From positions 1 through 64,000 of the forward strand of contig NZ_NXLR01000011.1 in the NCBI RefSeq assembly GCF_003364255.1: a stretch of DNA of 64,000 bases. The letters are read 5' to 3'. Under the pieces are notes generated by a model. It was not told the DNA's origin. It saw nothing but the letters and a program-made list of their open reading frames with translations, and ran no database searches. The DNA comes from Helicobacter marmotae (GTDB lineage: Bacteria; Campylobacterota; Campylobacteria; Campylobacterales; Helicobacteraceae). Position numbers and translations under genes: made by a program. Shown piece after piece: positions 29,579 through 35,642 of the stretch; position 1 is the stretch's first letter; the number at the start of each line of letters is the position of its first letter.

Positions 29579-29995
29579 TTACTTTGCCACCAAAACAGGT
29601 ATAGGAGAGGAGTTAATAAAACTATTTTGATGAGAGTTGAAGATTCTGTGTAAAAGAGAGGATTCACTCGCGCCAATCACAAGTAAATCATAATCATGTA
29701 CAATTTCAAGCACTACATCAATGGGATTACCCGTTTTGAGAATCTTTTGGCATGTAATGCCCTCTTTTTGAAACGCACTTTCAAATTCATTTAAGATATT
29801 ATTTGACTTTTCATTCTCTATGTGTTCAATAGTCCCATAATCCACAATCCCACTCTCAGCATATACGACTATTTCTGGTGTTACATGCAAGAGTGTGAGC
29901 AGGGTTTCTTCTCTATGTCCAAAAAAGCGCACAATGGTTGAAATGGCTCTGCGGCATTCCTGGGTATCACTTACACCAAATAAAAGCTTTACCAT
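29579..29995 (-). CDS. Universal stress protein family
   Basis: The protein of about 138 residues has the UspA fold: an N-terminal VKLLFGVSDT strand, a central DLLVIGASESS and a C-terminal SPIPVLVAK. The ATG at 29995 lies behind AAAGGAG. A longer frame beginning at 30013 overlaps the moeA end and was rejected. It is the last gene of the selA operon. Confidence 0.8.
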   Translation of the reverse strand: MVKLLFGVSDTQECRRAISTIVRFFGHREETLLTLLHVTPEIVVYAESGIVDYGTIEHIENEKSNNILNEFESAFQKEGITCQKILKTGNPIDVVLEIVHDYDLLVIGASESSLLHRIFNSHQNSFINSSPIPVLVAK

Positions 29996-30005
29996 ATTTT
30001 CTCCT

Positions 30006-31241
30006 TTAGTCATTCACAAAGTCCATTATATCACAAAAATCGGCACCATAAGGGATAACCTTAATATGCTCACCTTGCCTAAAATGGCTCTTTTCACAAA
30101 TGGCTATAGCATTATTTTGCCACATATTTACGAGCGCACTTGAGCCAATTTTGCCATTTTTGTAGAGCATAAAAGTATCATTATGGATTGTGCCTAAAAT
30201 CATACTTACACAAGGCTTGAGTTGGCACTCTTGGCTAAGTTTTAAGCTTAAACTTTGGGGGTAGAATGCCCTAGCTCCTTGCATAGATTCTAAAATAGGC
30301 AAGATTAATGTATGAAGATGTAAAAGCATAGCAAGGGGATTGCCCGGGAGCAAGATAAAAAGCCTCCCTTGTAATGTAGCAATGCTAAGGTGGCGCCCGG
30401 GTTTAATATCCACCCCAGAGAAGAGAAACTCTGCCCCCTCATGCAATAGCACTTCTTTTATTAAATCCGCCTCTCCTACACTCGCTCCGCCACTAGTAAT
30501 AATCACATCATATTGTGCGAAGTCTTCAAGCTTTGCTTTAAGTGTGGCTTTATCATCTGCTAAAATGCCTCCATAGTGGCATTCATAGCCGCGGCTTTTA
30601 AGGAGTGTGTAGCAGCTTGTGGCATTGGTATTATAAATTTGATTGAGTGTTGCTACCCCTTCTGGTTCAATGACTTCATCGCCGCTTGAGAATATCCCCA
30701 CGCATAAAGGAGCAAAGCATTCTATATGTGCTATCCCCTGTGAGGCTAAAATGCTTAAATCTAAGTGATTAAGTCTTGTGCCTTTGGGGATAAGCAAGGC
30801 ATTTTGGGCAATTTCCTCCCCTTGAAAGCGGATATTCTGCCCTTGAGTGATGTGGTTTTGCACATCTGGGGCAGGAATGCGCACTTTCTTACCCTCAACT
30901 TGTGTCCATTCAAACTGCACTACCGCCTCTGTATTTTGTGGGAGTGGCGCTCCTGTCATCACTTTATAGGTATGCCCTTTTTTCAATATAAGCCCTGCAC
31001 TTGATTCTCCAGCGAGAATGCGTCCATCGCAGATACAGCTACTCCCATAATCTGCTAGCATAATCGCATAGCCATCCATGGCGGAGTTATCAAAAGGTGG
31101 GAGAGCCTTGCGGGCGATAATATCATTTGCTATCACTCGCCCATAGGATTCAAAAAGCTTGGTTGTAAGGGTTTTTTTGCGCCCCTCCTTGCTTATTGGG
31201 AGAGATGTGCCAAGAGCGAATGCCTCCTTAAAACTTACCAT
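30006..31241 (-). CDS. moeA: Molybdopterin molybdenumtransferase
   Basis: Inserts molybdate into adenylylated molybdopterin. The 411-residue protein has the MoeA features PPFDNSAMDGYA, the MTGAPLP loop, SSGDEV and ITSGGASVGEADL, and LPGNPLAM. AAGGAGCTTAT precedes the ATG. Its place in the selA-selB operon suggests cofactor supply for a molybdenum/selenocysteine enzyme, most likely formate dehydrogenase, though no fdh gene is in this window. Confidence 0.92.
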   Translation of the reverse strand: MVSFKEAFALGTSLPISKEGRKKTLTTKLFESYGRVIANDIIARKALPPFDNSAMDGYAIMLADYGSSCICDGRILAGESSAGLILKKGHTYKVMTGAPLPQNTEAVVQFEWTQVEGKKVRIPAPDVQNHITQGQNIRFQGEEIAQNALLIPKGTRLNHLDLSILASQGIAHIECFAPLCVGIFSSGDEVIEPEGVATLNQIYNTNATSCYTLLKSRGYECHYGGILADDKATLKAKLEDFAQYDVIITSGGASVGEADLIKEVLLHEGAEFLFSGVDIKPGRHLSIATLQGRLFILLPGNPLAMLLHLHTLILPILESMQGARAFYPQSLSLKLSQECQLKPCVSMILGTIHNDTFMLYKNGKIGSSALVNMWQNNAIAICEKSHFRQGEHIKVIPYGADFCDIMDFVND

Positions 31242-31250
31242 ATAAGCTCC

Positions 31251-32342
31251 TTATGTGTGAAATTGTGCTAATTGCAAATATGTATTGGCAATATTTGCGC
31301 TCAAAGCAGGTATATCTGTAATCTCCCTATAGCTTACACTTAATAATTCGCGGCATATATGCTCTTCATAGCCCATGTGTGAAAGCACAAAAGAAGGCTT
31401 GGCATGACCAAAAAGGCAATCACTCCCATTAATGGCATAGATTCCCGCTATTTGCAAGCTTTGTATGAAAAGCCTTGCTTTGATATGCTTAAAGCGCAAG
31501 GCAAGGGCATTTTTTGCACTTAAATGCAAGGGTGAAAAAAGCGAAATATGCTCTTTAAGATGAGATGTGAGTTGCTCAAAAAATGCTTCTTTGCTCTCTT
31601 CTTGAGGGGGGATAGCAAGTATATCTTCTAAAGCTTTCATAGCTGCCTTAAAGAGATTTGGGCATAAAAGCTGTGTGCTGTAATAGTCATTTATAGCGTG
31701 ATTATGTGCTGTTATATCACTAAGTATAAAGGCGCTCTTGCGCATTAAGCCGATGTGCTCGCCATTACAGAGAAAAAACACTTGAGGGTGTGCTAAAGTG
31801 TGCAAAAATGCTAAACCCTCTTGTGTGAGTTGGCTTGCAAAAAGTGAAATATCGCAAAAAATCAGTGCATTTTGAGAGAGCTGAAGTGCCTCATCTATGA
31901 GAGATTCTATAGGATTGCATGAGAGTATATCTTGGTTGATAATGGGCAGGAAAATGGCTATTTTTTGGCTTTTTGGGACGTTGCAAGAGAGCGATTCTGT
32001 AATGCCATTTTGATTAAGTGGGAGAAAAGAAAGTCCATTTGGGATTAATGCTTGAAATTGCTTGCCCGCATAGAAGCTTTGCTGGGAGAGGCTAGGGGAG
32101 AGGAGAATGTGATAATGATGAGAAAAGAGCGTGCAAAAAAGCGAGAGAAATTCCGCATGACTATATTCAAAGCTTGTTGCATGGTTTTTGGCAAATGTTT
32201 TAGCAAGCTTTAGAGAATCTTCTTTAAGATGGGCTAAAAATACATTATCAAAGGTATTAGGATTAGGATAGGGGGTAGCTAGGAGTGCGTTTGCAGCTTG
32301 ATTTTGTGGGAAGTTTGCTAAGAAGTCAAGGCGAGTTGTCAT
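31251..32342 (-). CDS. Degenerate NifS-like (class V aminotransferase fold) protein in the sel operon
   Basis: The 363-residue protein is diverged, but its C-terminal third follows cysteine desulfurases: AGIYAINGSDCLFG with Cys309 at the catalytic cysteine loop, then PSFVLSHMGY and a late SVSYRE. The middle keeps FLPLNQNGI and a FCDISLFA segment like the PLP-pyridine Asp. Where the PLP lysine motif (HKxxGPKG) is expected the sequence reads FFLCNGEHIGLMRK, so the lysine appears lost, and the early histidine is not evident. NifS-type enzymes can deliver selenium. Lying one base after selB with an AAAGGA site, it may act in selenium handling as a carrier or partner. This function is inference. 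Confidence 0.55.
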   Translation of the reverse strand: MTTRLDFLANFPQNQAANALLATPYPNPNTFDNVFLAHLKEDSLKLAKTFAKNHATSFEYSHAEFLSLFCTLFSHHYHILLSPSLSQQSFYAGKQFQALIPNGLSFLPLNQNGITESLSCNVPKSQKIAIFLPIINQDILSCNPIESLIDEALQLSQNALIFCDISLFASQLTQEGLAFLHTLAHPQVFFLCNGEHIGLMRKSAFILSDITAHNHAINDYYSTQLLCPNLFKAAMKALEDILAIPPQEESKEAFFEQLTSHLKEHISLFSPLHLSAKNALALRFKHIKARLFIQSLQIAGIYAINGSDCLFGHAKPSFVLSHMGYEEHICRELLSVSYREITDIPALSANIANTYLQLAQFHT

Positions 32343-34220
32343 TTATGTCCTTTTATACTTCAATGTCCGCTTGTTTTCAATACATGCAATATCTTCAAAT
32401 CTATCTAAATATTCTAAATAGCCAATTAAATACTTGCGGCTAAGATGTGTCTCCTCTCGCAAGGTGCTCACATCTACATAGCCATGCTTAGCAATAAGCC
32501 CTCGCATAAGATGCACCATTTGTGTGAGTGCATTGGAAGTGATGAAAAGATTGTGATTAAGCCGCACTACCTTTTTAGCTAGGCTTAGGGCTTTTAGGGC
32601 ATTATCCCCTGTTTGCTTGTCAATATCAAGCTCTTCATAAATATTATATGGGGCTAATGGTGCAAAATGCTGCTTTGAGAGAGTAGTATAGAGTGTATCT
32701 TGCACAAAGGTATTTATGTCTTTTATGGTATTGAGTTTAGAGAGATACAGCCCATTTTTGTAGCGTATAAGTCCCTCTTTTAATAGCTCATCAAGTGCCT
32801 TCTGGGCAAGGGCAGGTGAGGCATATTTATATCTTAGGCTAATGCTTGAAGCGGAGAGGAGGGCGGATTTATTTTTCTCAAAAATGCAAAGAATGAGATT
32901 TGCTAAAGTTTGGATTTGAGAGAGTGGATAGAGGGTAAGAGAGCTTTGGTCAAAAAAGATAGATTCTATATTTGTTGCAATAGCTTTGCTTTGCTCATGG
33001 CTTAGGGCGAAACGTTGTGTTGAGCTAATAAGCCCAAAGCCTTTTTTGTGGATTTGAGTAAGCTGTGTAAAGGCATTTTGGAAGTCCTTTTGAGCCAATG
33101 CCTGAAGTAGCGCGATTTTTGTATGCTTTTTGATAGGGTCAATAATGGGGTTTAAAATCACGCCTCCGCAGATATTGCCATCATCACTTCGTAAAATAAA
33201 ATGCTGTGAAAATATCCCAAATACCGCTATATCGCATTTAAGTGTGGCGAGTTTAAGTGGGGCTTTACCAAAGGAATGGGAAGAAATGGGTATATCATCT
33301 AAAAGTTGTACTTTGGCATTAAACTTTTGAGTGCCTAAGTAGCATTGATATATCATATTGTGTTTTATCTCCCCAAATACCCCTACATCAATGCTATCAA
33401 ATCCGCGCAAATAGCCCTTTGGCGCAAGGAGATAGCCTCTTTGTAGCTCTGTGTGATTTATTTGTGAGAGATTGAATGCCACGCGATGAGAGGGGGTAGC
33501 CACCGCTGCGGGTCTATCATGGATTTGTATGCCTTTAATAAGCACTTCTTTATTGGCTTGATAGACATAGAGTTTATCATTTAGGGCACAAGAGCCGCTT
33601 AGCACACTGCCGCTAACCACGCAACCAGCGCCTTTAATATGAAAACTTCTATCAATATAATATACAAACATACCATAGTCGGTTTTGGGCATTTTAGGCA
33701 CAGAATCTAAGCACATTTTTAGCTCTTGGATTTGTTTTGCATTCTCTGCTTCTGGGTGGAGGCTAAGGGCGATTATGCTATGAAGAGTCATATCGCAAGA
33801 CTGAAATAACGCTTTGATTTGAGCTTGTAAAAGGGGAAGTTCTTCTTTAGGGGAGTTTAGTTTGTCAATTTTAGTAATCACACATATGCAGGTTTGAATG
33901 CCTAGCAAATTAGCGACCTTCATATGCTCTAAACTTTGAGGCATAATGCCCTCATTGGCGGCAATCACAAGTAAAAACACATCAATACCAAATGCCCCGG
34001 CTATCATATTTTTAAGCAGTTTTTCATGCCCGGGCACGTCAATAAAGGCGACATTGCGAGAGGGGAGCTGAAGTGAAGAGAAGCTTAAATCAAGGGTAAT
34101 GCCCCTTTGCTTTTCTTCTTTGAGGCTATCACCATCAAAGCCATTTAGGGCTTTAATAAGTGTTGTTTTGCCATGGTCTATATGCCCACCTAAACCAACG
34201 ATAATATCATTATCTTGCAT
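32343..34220 (-). CDS. selB: Selenocysteine-specific translation elongation factor
   Basis: Delivers selenocysteinyl-tRNA to UGA codons marked by a SECIS hairpin. The 625-residue GTPase has the P-loop GHIDHGKTTL near the start, the switch region GITLDLSF, DVPGHEKL and ITKID, then EF-Tu-like domains 2-3. The C-terminal ~200 residues look like winged helices that bind SECIS RNA. The start overlaps selA by 11 bases. Confidence 0.93.
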   Translation of the reverse strand: MQDNDIIVGLGGHIDHGKTTLIKALNGFDGDSLKEEKQRGITLDLSFSSLQLPSRNVAFIDVPGHEKLLKNMIAGAFGIDVFLLVIAANEGIMPQSLEHMKVANLLGIQTCICVITKIDKLNSPKEELPLLQAQIKALFQSCDMTLHSIIALSLHPEAENAKQIQELKMCLDSVPKMPKTDYGMFVYYIDRSFHIKGAGCVVSGSVLSGSCALNDKLYVYQANKEVLIKGIQIHDRPAAVATPSHRVAFNLSQINHTELQRGYLLAPKGYLRGFDSIDVGVFGEIKHNMIYQCYLGTQKFNAKVQLLDDIPISSHSFGKAPLKLATLKCDIAVFGIFSQHFILRSDDGNICGGVILNPIIDPIKKHTKIALLQALAQKDFQNAFTQLTQIHKKGFGLISSTQRFALSHEQSKAIATNIESIFFDQSSLTLYPLSQIQTLANLILCIFEKNKSALLSASSISLRYKYASPALAQKALDELLKEGLIRYKNGLYLSKLNTIKDINTFVQDTLYTTLSKQHFAPLAPYNIYEELDIDKQTGDNALKALSLAKKVVRLNHNLFITSNALTQMVHLMRGLIAKHGYVDVSTLREETHLSRKYLIGYLEYLDRFEDIACIENKRTLKYKRT

Positions 34221-35589
34221 GCTTAAAAATCTCTATAAGTATATTGGCTAACATCTCTCCTTGCCCCTTTAATAAAGTGCGCATATCAAAAAGCACACTT
34301 TTAGCTTTTATGCAGGCTACCACTCCCTTAGTGCGTAAGGAATCTTCTAAATCTTTTGCTAGCATAGATTTTGGATTAATCTCTATGCCAAAAGATTTAA
34401 AAGAATCTTCAGGCATAGCCCCTCCTCCTGCAAGTGAGTGTAGCTCGATAATATCTATATCAGCCTTATTGCTTATGCAAGAGAGGCGGTTTTTTAACAT
34501 AGAGGCTTGGTGCTCTAAATCTTTAGGAGAGGCAAGGAGCATACTTAGGGTTGGGATTTTATGATAGGCTTTATCTTTATAGGCTTGGAGTGTCGCTTTG
34601 AGGGAGAGAATGCTAAATTTATCGACTCTAAAAGTGCGCAAAAGCGGGTTTTTCTTTAATGTCGCTATGAGCTCTCTCTTCCCGCAGATAATGCCCGCTT
34701 GAGGTCCGCCTAAAAGTTTATCCCCACTAAAGCTGAGAAGTGCGGGCTTATAAGCACAAATCTCTTGCACACTCATTTCATCTTTAAGAGGTATAGCCCC
34801 CATATGTCCGCTACCTAAGTCAAAATAATCAATAAGCCCCCTCTCTTGTGCTAGGGCTATAAGTTCCTTTATATGACATGAATGTGTGAATCCACTTTGA
34901 TAGAAATTACTTCTATGGGCTTTCATAATCAAAGCACTTTGCTCATTTATGGCTTTTTCATAATCTTGCAAGTATGTTTTATTGGTTGTCCCTACTTCAT
35001 GGAGGATACACGAGGCATTTTCCATAATTTCTGGGATTCTAAACCCTCCGCCTATCTCTACAAGCTCTCCACGCGAGATAATTACTTCTTTGTGTTTGGC
35101 AAAGGTGTGGAGGATTAAAAACACTGCCGCAGCATTATTATTGACTAAAAGCGCATCTTCACAGCCACATATTTGGCAAAGCAATTGCACACAATGCCTA
35201 TAGCGTTCCCCCCTTTTGCCTGCTTCTAAGTCATATTCTAAGGTATGATAGGAGCAGAGAAATGGTGTGATTTCATCAATAATCTCTTTAGAAAACACAC
35301 TTCGCCCGAGATTGGTATGCAACACAACCCCTGTGGCATTGATTACTCGCTCTAAAGTAGGCATTTGTGCTAGTTTGGCTTTAGCTTGAAGTGTAGGGAT
35401 AAGCTCATTTATGGCTTGGGAGAATGCTTTAGGTGAGAGTGTTGCGTTTTTAAGCCCCCAACGCAGGCTATCTAAATGAGAGGTGATAAGCGGTAAAAGC
35501 AGAGATTTCTCAAATACCCTTAACTCCGCAGAAGCAAGCAATGTATCGACTTTAGGGATAGATTTTAAAAGCTCTTGTAGGGTATGCAC
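34210..35589 (-). CDS. selA: L-seryl-tRNA(Sec) selenium transferase
   Basis: Converts seryl-tRNA(Sec) to selenocysteinyl-tRNA with selenophosphate. The PLP lysine lies in SFSGDKLLGGPQAG, with INATGVVLHTNLGRS near residue 75. A frame from 35616 would contain the ribosome site AAAGGAG inside the coding region. The GTG at 35589 is six bases after it and gives about 459 residues. selD and tRNA-Sec are not in the window. Confidence 0.93.
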   Translation of the reverse strand: MHTLQELLKSIPKVDTLLASAELRVFEKSLLLPLITSHLDSLRWGLKNATLSPKAFSQAINELIPTLQAKAKLAQMPTLERVINATGVVLHTNLGRSVFSKEIIDEITPFLCSYHTLEYDLEAGKRGERYRHCVQLLCQICGCEDALLVNNNAAAVFLILHTFAKHKEVIISRGELVEIGGGFRIPEIMENASCILHEVGTTNKTYLQDYEKAINEQSALIMKAHRSNFYQSGFTHSCHIKELIALAQERGLIDYFDLGSGHMGAIPLKDEMSVQEICAYKPALLSFSGDKLLGGPQAGIICGKRELIATLKKNPLLRTFRVDKFSILSLKATLQAYKDKAYHKIPTLSMLLASPKDLEHQASMLKNRLSCISNKADIDIIELHSLAGGGAMPEDSFKSFGIEINPKSMLAKDLEDSLRTKGVVACIKAKSVLFDMRTLLKGQGEMLANILIEIFKHAR

Positions 35590-35642
35590 CTGTTTCTCCT
35601 TTGTATAAACAGCCAAAGTAGGATTCTATCTTGCTTATGTAA

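Follow-up and report, generated by a model that had tools for sequence, protein, structure and literature searches.

A degenerate NifS-like protein encoded between selB and moeA in Helicobacter marmotae is a candidate partner of one FdhD class in formate dehydrogenase maturation

The window analysed here is a stretch of 64,000 nucleotides from Helicobacter marmotae (contig NZ_NXLR01000011.1). Its minus strand carries a run of genes that begins with selA and selB, followed by an open reading frame, here called X. The map of open reading frames placed X right after selB and before moeA, in agreement with a first-pass annotation of this DNA. The genes and the codons discussed below are as follows.

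34210..35616, minus strand: selA, gene 1 of the run
32343..34220, minus strand: selB, directly upstream of X
31251..32342, minus strand: X, a degenerate NifS/IscS-fold protein of 363 aa, proposed FdhD partner in formate dehydrogenase Mo-cofactor sulfuration
31851..31853, minus strand: Asp164 codon of X, putative equivalent of the PLP pyridine-binding Asp (motif and profile alignment)
31758..31760, minus strand: Glu195 codon of X, at the PLP-lysine position or one residue away from it (homolog alignments)
31416..31418, minus strand: Cys309 codon of X (homolog alignments)
30006..31241, minus strand: moeA (Mo insertion, cofactor synthesis), directly downstream of X
29579..30013, minus strand: Usp-like gene overlapping the end of moeA, an order shared with genomes G120 and G110

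The stop codon of selB touches the start codon of X (TAAATG), and 9 bp separate X from moeA downstream. The motifs quoted in the first-pass annotation (NGSDC with Cys309, PSFVLSHMGY and FFLCNGEHIGLMRK) are all present in X. A chance reading frame or a pseudogene was ruled out, as 59 intact homologs with no internal stops were found among 121 genomes of the family Helicobacteraceae. In the window, fdhD and X are unlinked, and the genome has a separate gene for a full NifS (L066).

The kinship with NifS that had been proposed from the letters alone was confirmed by profile search and predicted structure. When X was searched as a single sequence, Pfam gave no match, and the NCBIfam NifS model matched weakly over the C-terminal third (E = 0.0014), with a score of 17.5 bits that lies far below the curated cut-off of 530.75. 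The same model matched 49 of the 59 family members, the best at 4e-10, and a profile of the 59 homologs aligned over nearly its full length with Thermotoga maritima NifS (PDB 1ecx, E = 1.3e-7). Moreover, the AlphaFold model of X was of high confidence (pLDDT 95.5, pTM 0.93), and its best Foldseek matches in the PDB were NifS, IscS, Nfs1 and selenocysteine lyase, with E-values down to 3.5e-17 and a TM-score of about 0.7. The AF2 model, Foldseek and the profile all assign X to the class V aminotransferase fold. Along with the predicted fold, X shares with NifS/IscS proteins, including Helicobacter pylori NifS and 1ecx, an N-terminal LDxxxNP-type strand, a C-terminal loop with a catalytic-type cysteine, and a PS/VL helix; the His, Asn and Asp of the PLP pocket are partly kept in the Helicobacter proteins.

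The conservation of the active-site residues was evaluated in the homolog alignments. Cys309, on the C-terminal loop, is present without exception in the 59 Helicobacteraceae homologs, in the 32 homologs from Arcobacter, Sulfurimonas and Sulfuricurvum, and in seven reduced homologs of the termite-gut type. Across the 59 homologs, which span nine genera, the surroundings of this cysteine are conserved as NGxxC, GxxxPSxVL and RELLSxS. The lysine that forms the Schiff base with PLP in NifS has no conserved counterpart in this family: in the 59 Helicobacteraceae homologs, no column near the PLP site is conserved as Lys, and the consensus at the site reads L-x-N-G-E-x-(L/I)-G-(L/I)-x-R-x-x-G, with Glu at column 195 in 52 of 59 and Lys at column 196 in two of 59. 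The equivalence of Glu195/His196 to the NifS lysine was drawn through the Arcobacter-type homologs as a bridge family, because direct hhalign alignment of the Helicobacter X family with NifS misplaces the lysine segment. A PLP lysine shifted to a nearby position was ruled out for Helicobacteraceae; the sole strongly Lys-conserved column of the family is K288, in the C-terminal domain. Elsewhere in the pocket, as judged from alignments, the Asp164 position has Asp (52/59) or Glu (7/59), and the PLP-stacking His (equivalent to His86) is found in 48 of 59, although the window protein has Ser there. The first-pass finding of a persulfide-type cysteine in a protein that has lost the PLP lysine held across the Helicobacteraceae homologs.

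The search was extended with the X profile to an order sample of 399 genomes. Strong matches were obtained in 50 further genomes from three other families, and two additional weak matches were true NifS. The proteins of the other families are clear homologs of Helicobacteraceae X (hhalign, 2.7e-44). A scan of the named collection with the single X sequence gave no matches, and the profile scan recovered loci in Arcobacter, Aliarcobacter, Malaciobacter, Poseidonibacter, Sulfurimonas, Sulfuricurvum and termite-gut or other Helicobacteraceae metagenome-assembled genomes, the label termite-gut being deduced from isolate names. All of these loci are of Campylobacterota type, with one further contig (L272) that is labelled uncultured Pseudomonadaceae and is probably misbinned: its X gene is closest to Aliarcobacter, and another bin from the same sample is Aliarcobacter. 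A profile of the C-terminal part was also run against 40 genomes of Campylobacter, Sulfurovum and other X-lacking families; no hidden diverged X was found, and it matched only full NifS-length proteins. One Arcobacter-type genome (G429, L151) has two X genes, the second of which follows only a 140-aa reading frame and lies near a tungstate/molybdate-type ABC transporter.

The residues lost from the PLP site differ among lineages. In Arcobacter, Sulfurimonas and Sulfuricurvum, an invariant Tyr-Lys aligns with the NifS lysine (32/32), Asn stands in place of the Asp in 31 of 32, and the His is mostly replaced by Ser, Thr or Cys. By motif, a pair of Sulfuricurvum proteins may keep both Asp and Lys. 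The termite-gut type is reduced to about 225 aa, and the lysine-bearing segment is gone, yet the protein still folds in prediction (pLDDT 84) with IscS as best match. Hence Lys is lost in one lineage, Asp in another and most of the large domain in a third, and the alignments point to a family whose PLP residues decay in differing combinations, with the Cys loop as the sole constant part.

The genomic context of X was then compared among families. In the Helicobacteraceae, X is mostly found with selAB and moeA, and fdhD lies elsewhere. Outside this family (Arcobacter, Sulfurimonas, Sulfuricurvum and the termite-gut relatives), X stands at the end of a formate dehydrogenase operon, after fdhA-fdhB-fdhC-fdhD, with either nothing or a 140-aa reading frame and a ModE-like gene between fdhD and X. 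At least 32 of the 39 X genes outside Helicobacteraceae follow fdhD directly or no more than 0.8 kb downstream; among the 39, two more links are masked by over-long ORF starts and three genes lie at contig edges. In Arcobacter, selA is away from X, which is inside the fdh operon. Outside Helicobacteraceae, moeA often comes after X, and the X-moeA adjacency is common in the Arcobacter and termite-gut lineages. A Wolinella-like genome (G120) has the order selA-selB-fdhD-modE-X-moeA-usp, which joins the selAB layout and the fdhD layout. In genus g8 and two g6 genomes, X adjoins none of the sel, fdhD or moeA genes and is found only in selA-bearing genomes. As a separate observation, X-lacking Campylobacter and Sulfurovum have a single protein of about 245 aa after fdhD (L198:7264-8001) that appears to correspond to the Arcobacter 140-aa reading frame plus the ModE-like reading frame (L149:6163-6949); the 140-aa part had no Pfam or NCBIfam match.

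The distribution of X was evaluated against the genes for selenocysteine and for formate dehydrogenase (FDH). Of the 121 Helicobacteraceae genomes, 59 carry X, 63 have a full-length selA and 62 have FdhD. This sample alone cannot separate a link to selA from a link to FdhD, because selA accompanies X in 59 of 59 genomes and FdhD in 57 of 59. Within the 63 selA-positive genomes, X was associated with FdhD (Fisher p = 0.018), and two genomes, G076 and G098, keep selA and selB with FdhD and X both absent. In the order sample, FdhD is present in 74 of the 78 X-bearing genomes (48/50 outside and 26/28 inside Helicobacteraceae); the exceptions are G095, G100, and G213 and G232, whose X sits at a contig edge. 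Thus the presence of X follows that of FdhD. By contrast, X is missing from about 120 of the 200 genomes of the order sample that carry selA.

The first-pass annotation had suggested that X could carry selenium to SelD and had named homologs that never co-occur with selA/selB as evidence against this idea. Such evidence was obtained in part. Although selA is present in 75 of the 78 X-bearing genomes of the order sample, which is because their FDH is a selenoprotein, three (G434, G344 and G245, the last 75% complete) lack it. In these three, the X-linked FdhA reads ARICHS, with Cys, and in the others ARIUHS, with Sec encoded by TGA (3/3 vs. 0/26 readable). The chance of selA loss coinciding exactly with the Cys-type FdhA in three genomes is 1 in 3654. 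Hence X is kept with a Cys-type FDH where the selenium genes are gone, as would not be expected of a selenium-delivery protein, which should never occur without selA/selB. A pure selenium function was ruled out by these genomes, which show X to be independent of selenium. Delivery to SelD is therefore not supported, given also the position of X beside fdhD outside Helicobacteraceae and the joint loss of FdhD and X in G076 and G098 despite selA/selB; the more general proposal of a carrier or scaffold is still plausible. The link between X and formate dehydrogenase is well supported.

Several observations on the selenocysteine and molybdoenzyme genes were made alongside. G095, G098 and G100 keep selA/selB with no FDH, and G076 (L061) has intact selA and selB but lacks both FdhD and any PF00384 molybdoenzyme. 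In genus g2 (e.g., G026-G039), the SelA-like reading frames are mostly N-terminally shortened, with scores close to or under the family cut-off; one has internal stops, and full SelB is absent in most, which looks like a decaying Sec system. A molybdoenzyme gene in G100 (contig C23, L194/L196) lies in two overlapping frames, likely a frameshift or an assembly error.

In a phylogenetic tree, the FdhD proteins of Campylobacterales formed two classes, with a very long branch (1.3 changes per site) between them. X is found only with class II FdhD (100% SH-aLRT), and this holds in Arcobacteraceae, Sulfurimonadaceae, the termite-gut relatives and Helicobacteraceae. The loop motifs differ by class (SGC[CG]xGVTGN vs. 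SGCG[RK]SxTAN; e.g., L149:5379-6167 and L199:6280-7062), and the CxxC of Escherichia coli FdhD is in neither. Furthermore, the site eight residues before TGC is Cys in 31 of 32 X-lacking genomes and in none of 60 X-bearing genomes: class I FdhD has Cys in all cases, and class II FdhD that occurs with X has Ser, Thr or Asn. Among the class II genomes, G106 and G115 have lost X. FdhD of G106 has Cys at the site (EKGCTLFHTTGC), and its X-bearing sisters, such as G109 (EKGNLLFHTTGC), have Asn; G115 has Thr, and the Cys was not gained. X changes only three times along the tree, too few independent pairs for a significant covariation (sign test, p = 0.5). The association between the presence of X and the absence of the FdhD Cys, which depends on few independent events, is therefore suggestive and not significant.

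Taken together, these results favour, with a probability of about 0.6, the reading that X has a class V desulfurase fold that in Helicobacteraceae has lost PLP chemistry, and that it is a partner of one FdhD class in FDH maturation. In E. coli, FdhD receives sulfur from IscS via its loop cysteines and uses it to sulfurate bis-MGD (PMC10609526); FDH cannot do without the sulfido ligand (PMC12140954). Because X has a lysine-less fold, keeps the persulfide loop and is tied to one FdhD class, the simplest role for it would be a relay or docking subunit between NifS and FdhD. More specifically, we tentatively propose, at somewhat less than even odds, that X is a PLP-free persulfide relay for the FDH Mo cofactor, in which its loop Cys replaces the Cys lost by FdhD and active-site decay was staged across independent lineages. 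The true NifS of the cell would make a persulfide from cysteine, a reaction established for IscS and NifS generally, and X would take up the sulfur at Cys309 on its mobile loop. X would then dock on FdhD and transfer the sulfur to the cysteine in the FdhD loop (SGC[C/G]), standing in for the cysteine absent from class II FdhD, as the covariation hints. FdhD would finally sulfurate the Mo cofactor and deliver it to FdhA, Sec- or Cys-type alike. We infer the persulfide on Cys309, the binding to FdhD and the direction of transfer.

Some observations stand against a role in FDH maturation. G095 and G100 lack both FdhD and FDH yet retain X and selA, and they have NapA and other molybdoenzymes, among them a TMAO-reductase-like enzyme. 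The usual placement of X with selAB and moeA, apart from fdhD, in Helicobacteraceae also counts against this role. X is also not essential for FDH in general, because class I FdhD works without it, as in Campylobacter and Sulfurovum, and because G106 and G115 have FDH and FdhD and have lost X, in G115 with no gain of the FdhD Cys. The two Nap-bearing genomes, together with the X-moeA adjacency in Helicobacteraceae and many Arcobacter, would agree with a general molybdoenzyme factor that acts with MoeA on the cofactor itself or serves Nap/Tor besides FDH, and the Nap sulfuration factor is unknown (PMC10609526). However, G098 and G106 have NapA without X, and outside Helicobacteraceae the linkage to fdhD is the stronger signal, so we regard this role as quite unlikely. 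A non-catalytic scaffold is unlikely: X would hold FdhD, NifS or MoeA together, for example as a docking subunit with an IscS-like surface, and Cys309 would be structural or metal-binding. In favour of it, IscS itself is a hub that binds many partners, the pocket of X decays while its C-terminal surface block (IKAR...NGxxC...PS) is its most conserved part, and the reduced 225-aa form survives in the termite-gut lineages. The strict invariance of Cys in every lineage and the absence of the FdhD Cys where X is present nevertheless fit chemistry better than scaffolding.

Two further explanations concern the cofactor and the cargo. At least in the Lys-bearing lineages, X could bind PLP, PMP or another ligand and work as a specialised desulfurase or selenocysteine lyase; Arcobacter-type X may indeed use PLP because its Lys is invariant, which counts against a PLP-free relay there, and the Helicobacter homologs retain the Asp and mostly the His. 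Nevertheless, the latter have no Lys, most Arcobacter-type proteins have neither Asp nor His, the termite-gut homologs have lost the whole lysine segment, and no lineage keeps the Lys-Asp pair, Sulfuricurvum perhaps excepted, which makes a PLP enzyme very unlikely. The least probable alternative is a selenium carrier, in which X would hand perselenide from another desulfurase to SelD or SelA. This would suit the selA-selB-X order in the window and most Helicobacteraceae, the full-length selA of every X-bearing genome in that family, and the retention of X and selA in the two genomes that have no FdhD. It is contradicted by the three selA-less genomes with Cys-type FdhA, by the Arcobacter X genes in fdh operons with selA elsewhere, by G076 and G098, and by the many selA-positive genomes that have no X.

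Compared with known systems, the proposed relay to FdhD would resemble the E. coli FdhD-IscS pathway, in which a desulfurase supplies the sulfur that FdhD adds to bis-MGD, and X has genetic ties to FdhD and FDH. However, the donor in E. coli is the housekeeping IscS, whereas here an additional degenerate desulfurase accompanies a Cys-lacking class of FdhD. Unlike NifS/IscS, Helicobacteraceae X lacks the PLP lysine, falls below every curated cut-off and exists beside a separate true NifS. By the lysine test it is not a cysteine desulfurase, and it is classed here as working like a Moco-sulfuration partner. A dedicated NifS-like protein for Mo-cofactor sulfuration, as proposed for X, is known from XdhC-NifS4 of Rhodobacter and the N-terminal domain of MOCOS/ABA3, but these are active PLP-dependent desulfurases that serve the xanthine oxidase family, while X has no Lys for such a PLP-dependent domain and goes with an FDH of the DMSO-reductase family. 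LCB1 of serine palmitoyltransferase is a lysine-less subunit of a PLP enzyme and, like X, keeps the PLP fold without the Schiff-base lysine; LCB1-type subunits form a heterodimer with an active paralog, and X instead keeps the persulfide cysteine. No published description of a lysine-less desulfurase relative tied to FdhD was found in the literature searched, which stops short of most subscription journals.

Formate dehydrogenases attract interest for CO2 reduction, but the route by which sulfur reaches their molybdenum is understood only in part, and the loop cysteines required by the E. coli IscS-FdhD model are missing from many FdhD proteins. If the proposed reading is true, a second FdhD class accompanied by a lysine-less relative of the desulfurases would concretely answer this question for one large bacterial group. 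Moreover, X would be a clear case of a fold that has lost its cofactor chemistry and kept its sulfur-carrying arm, with intermediate stages in living relatives.
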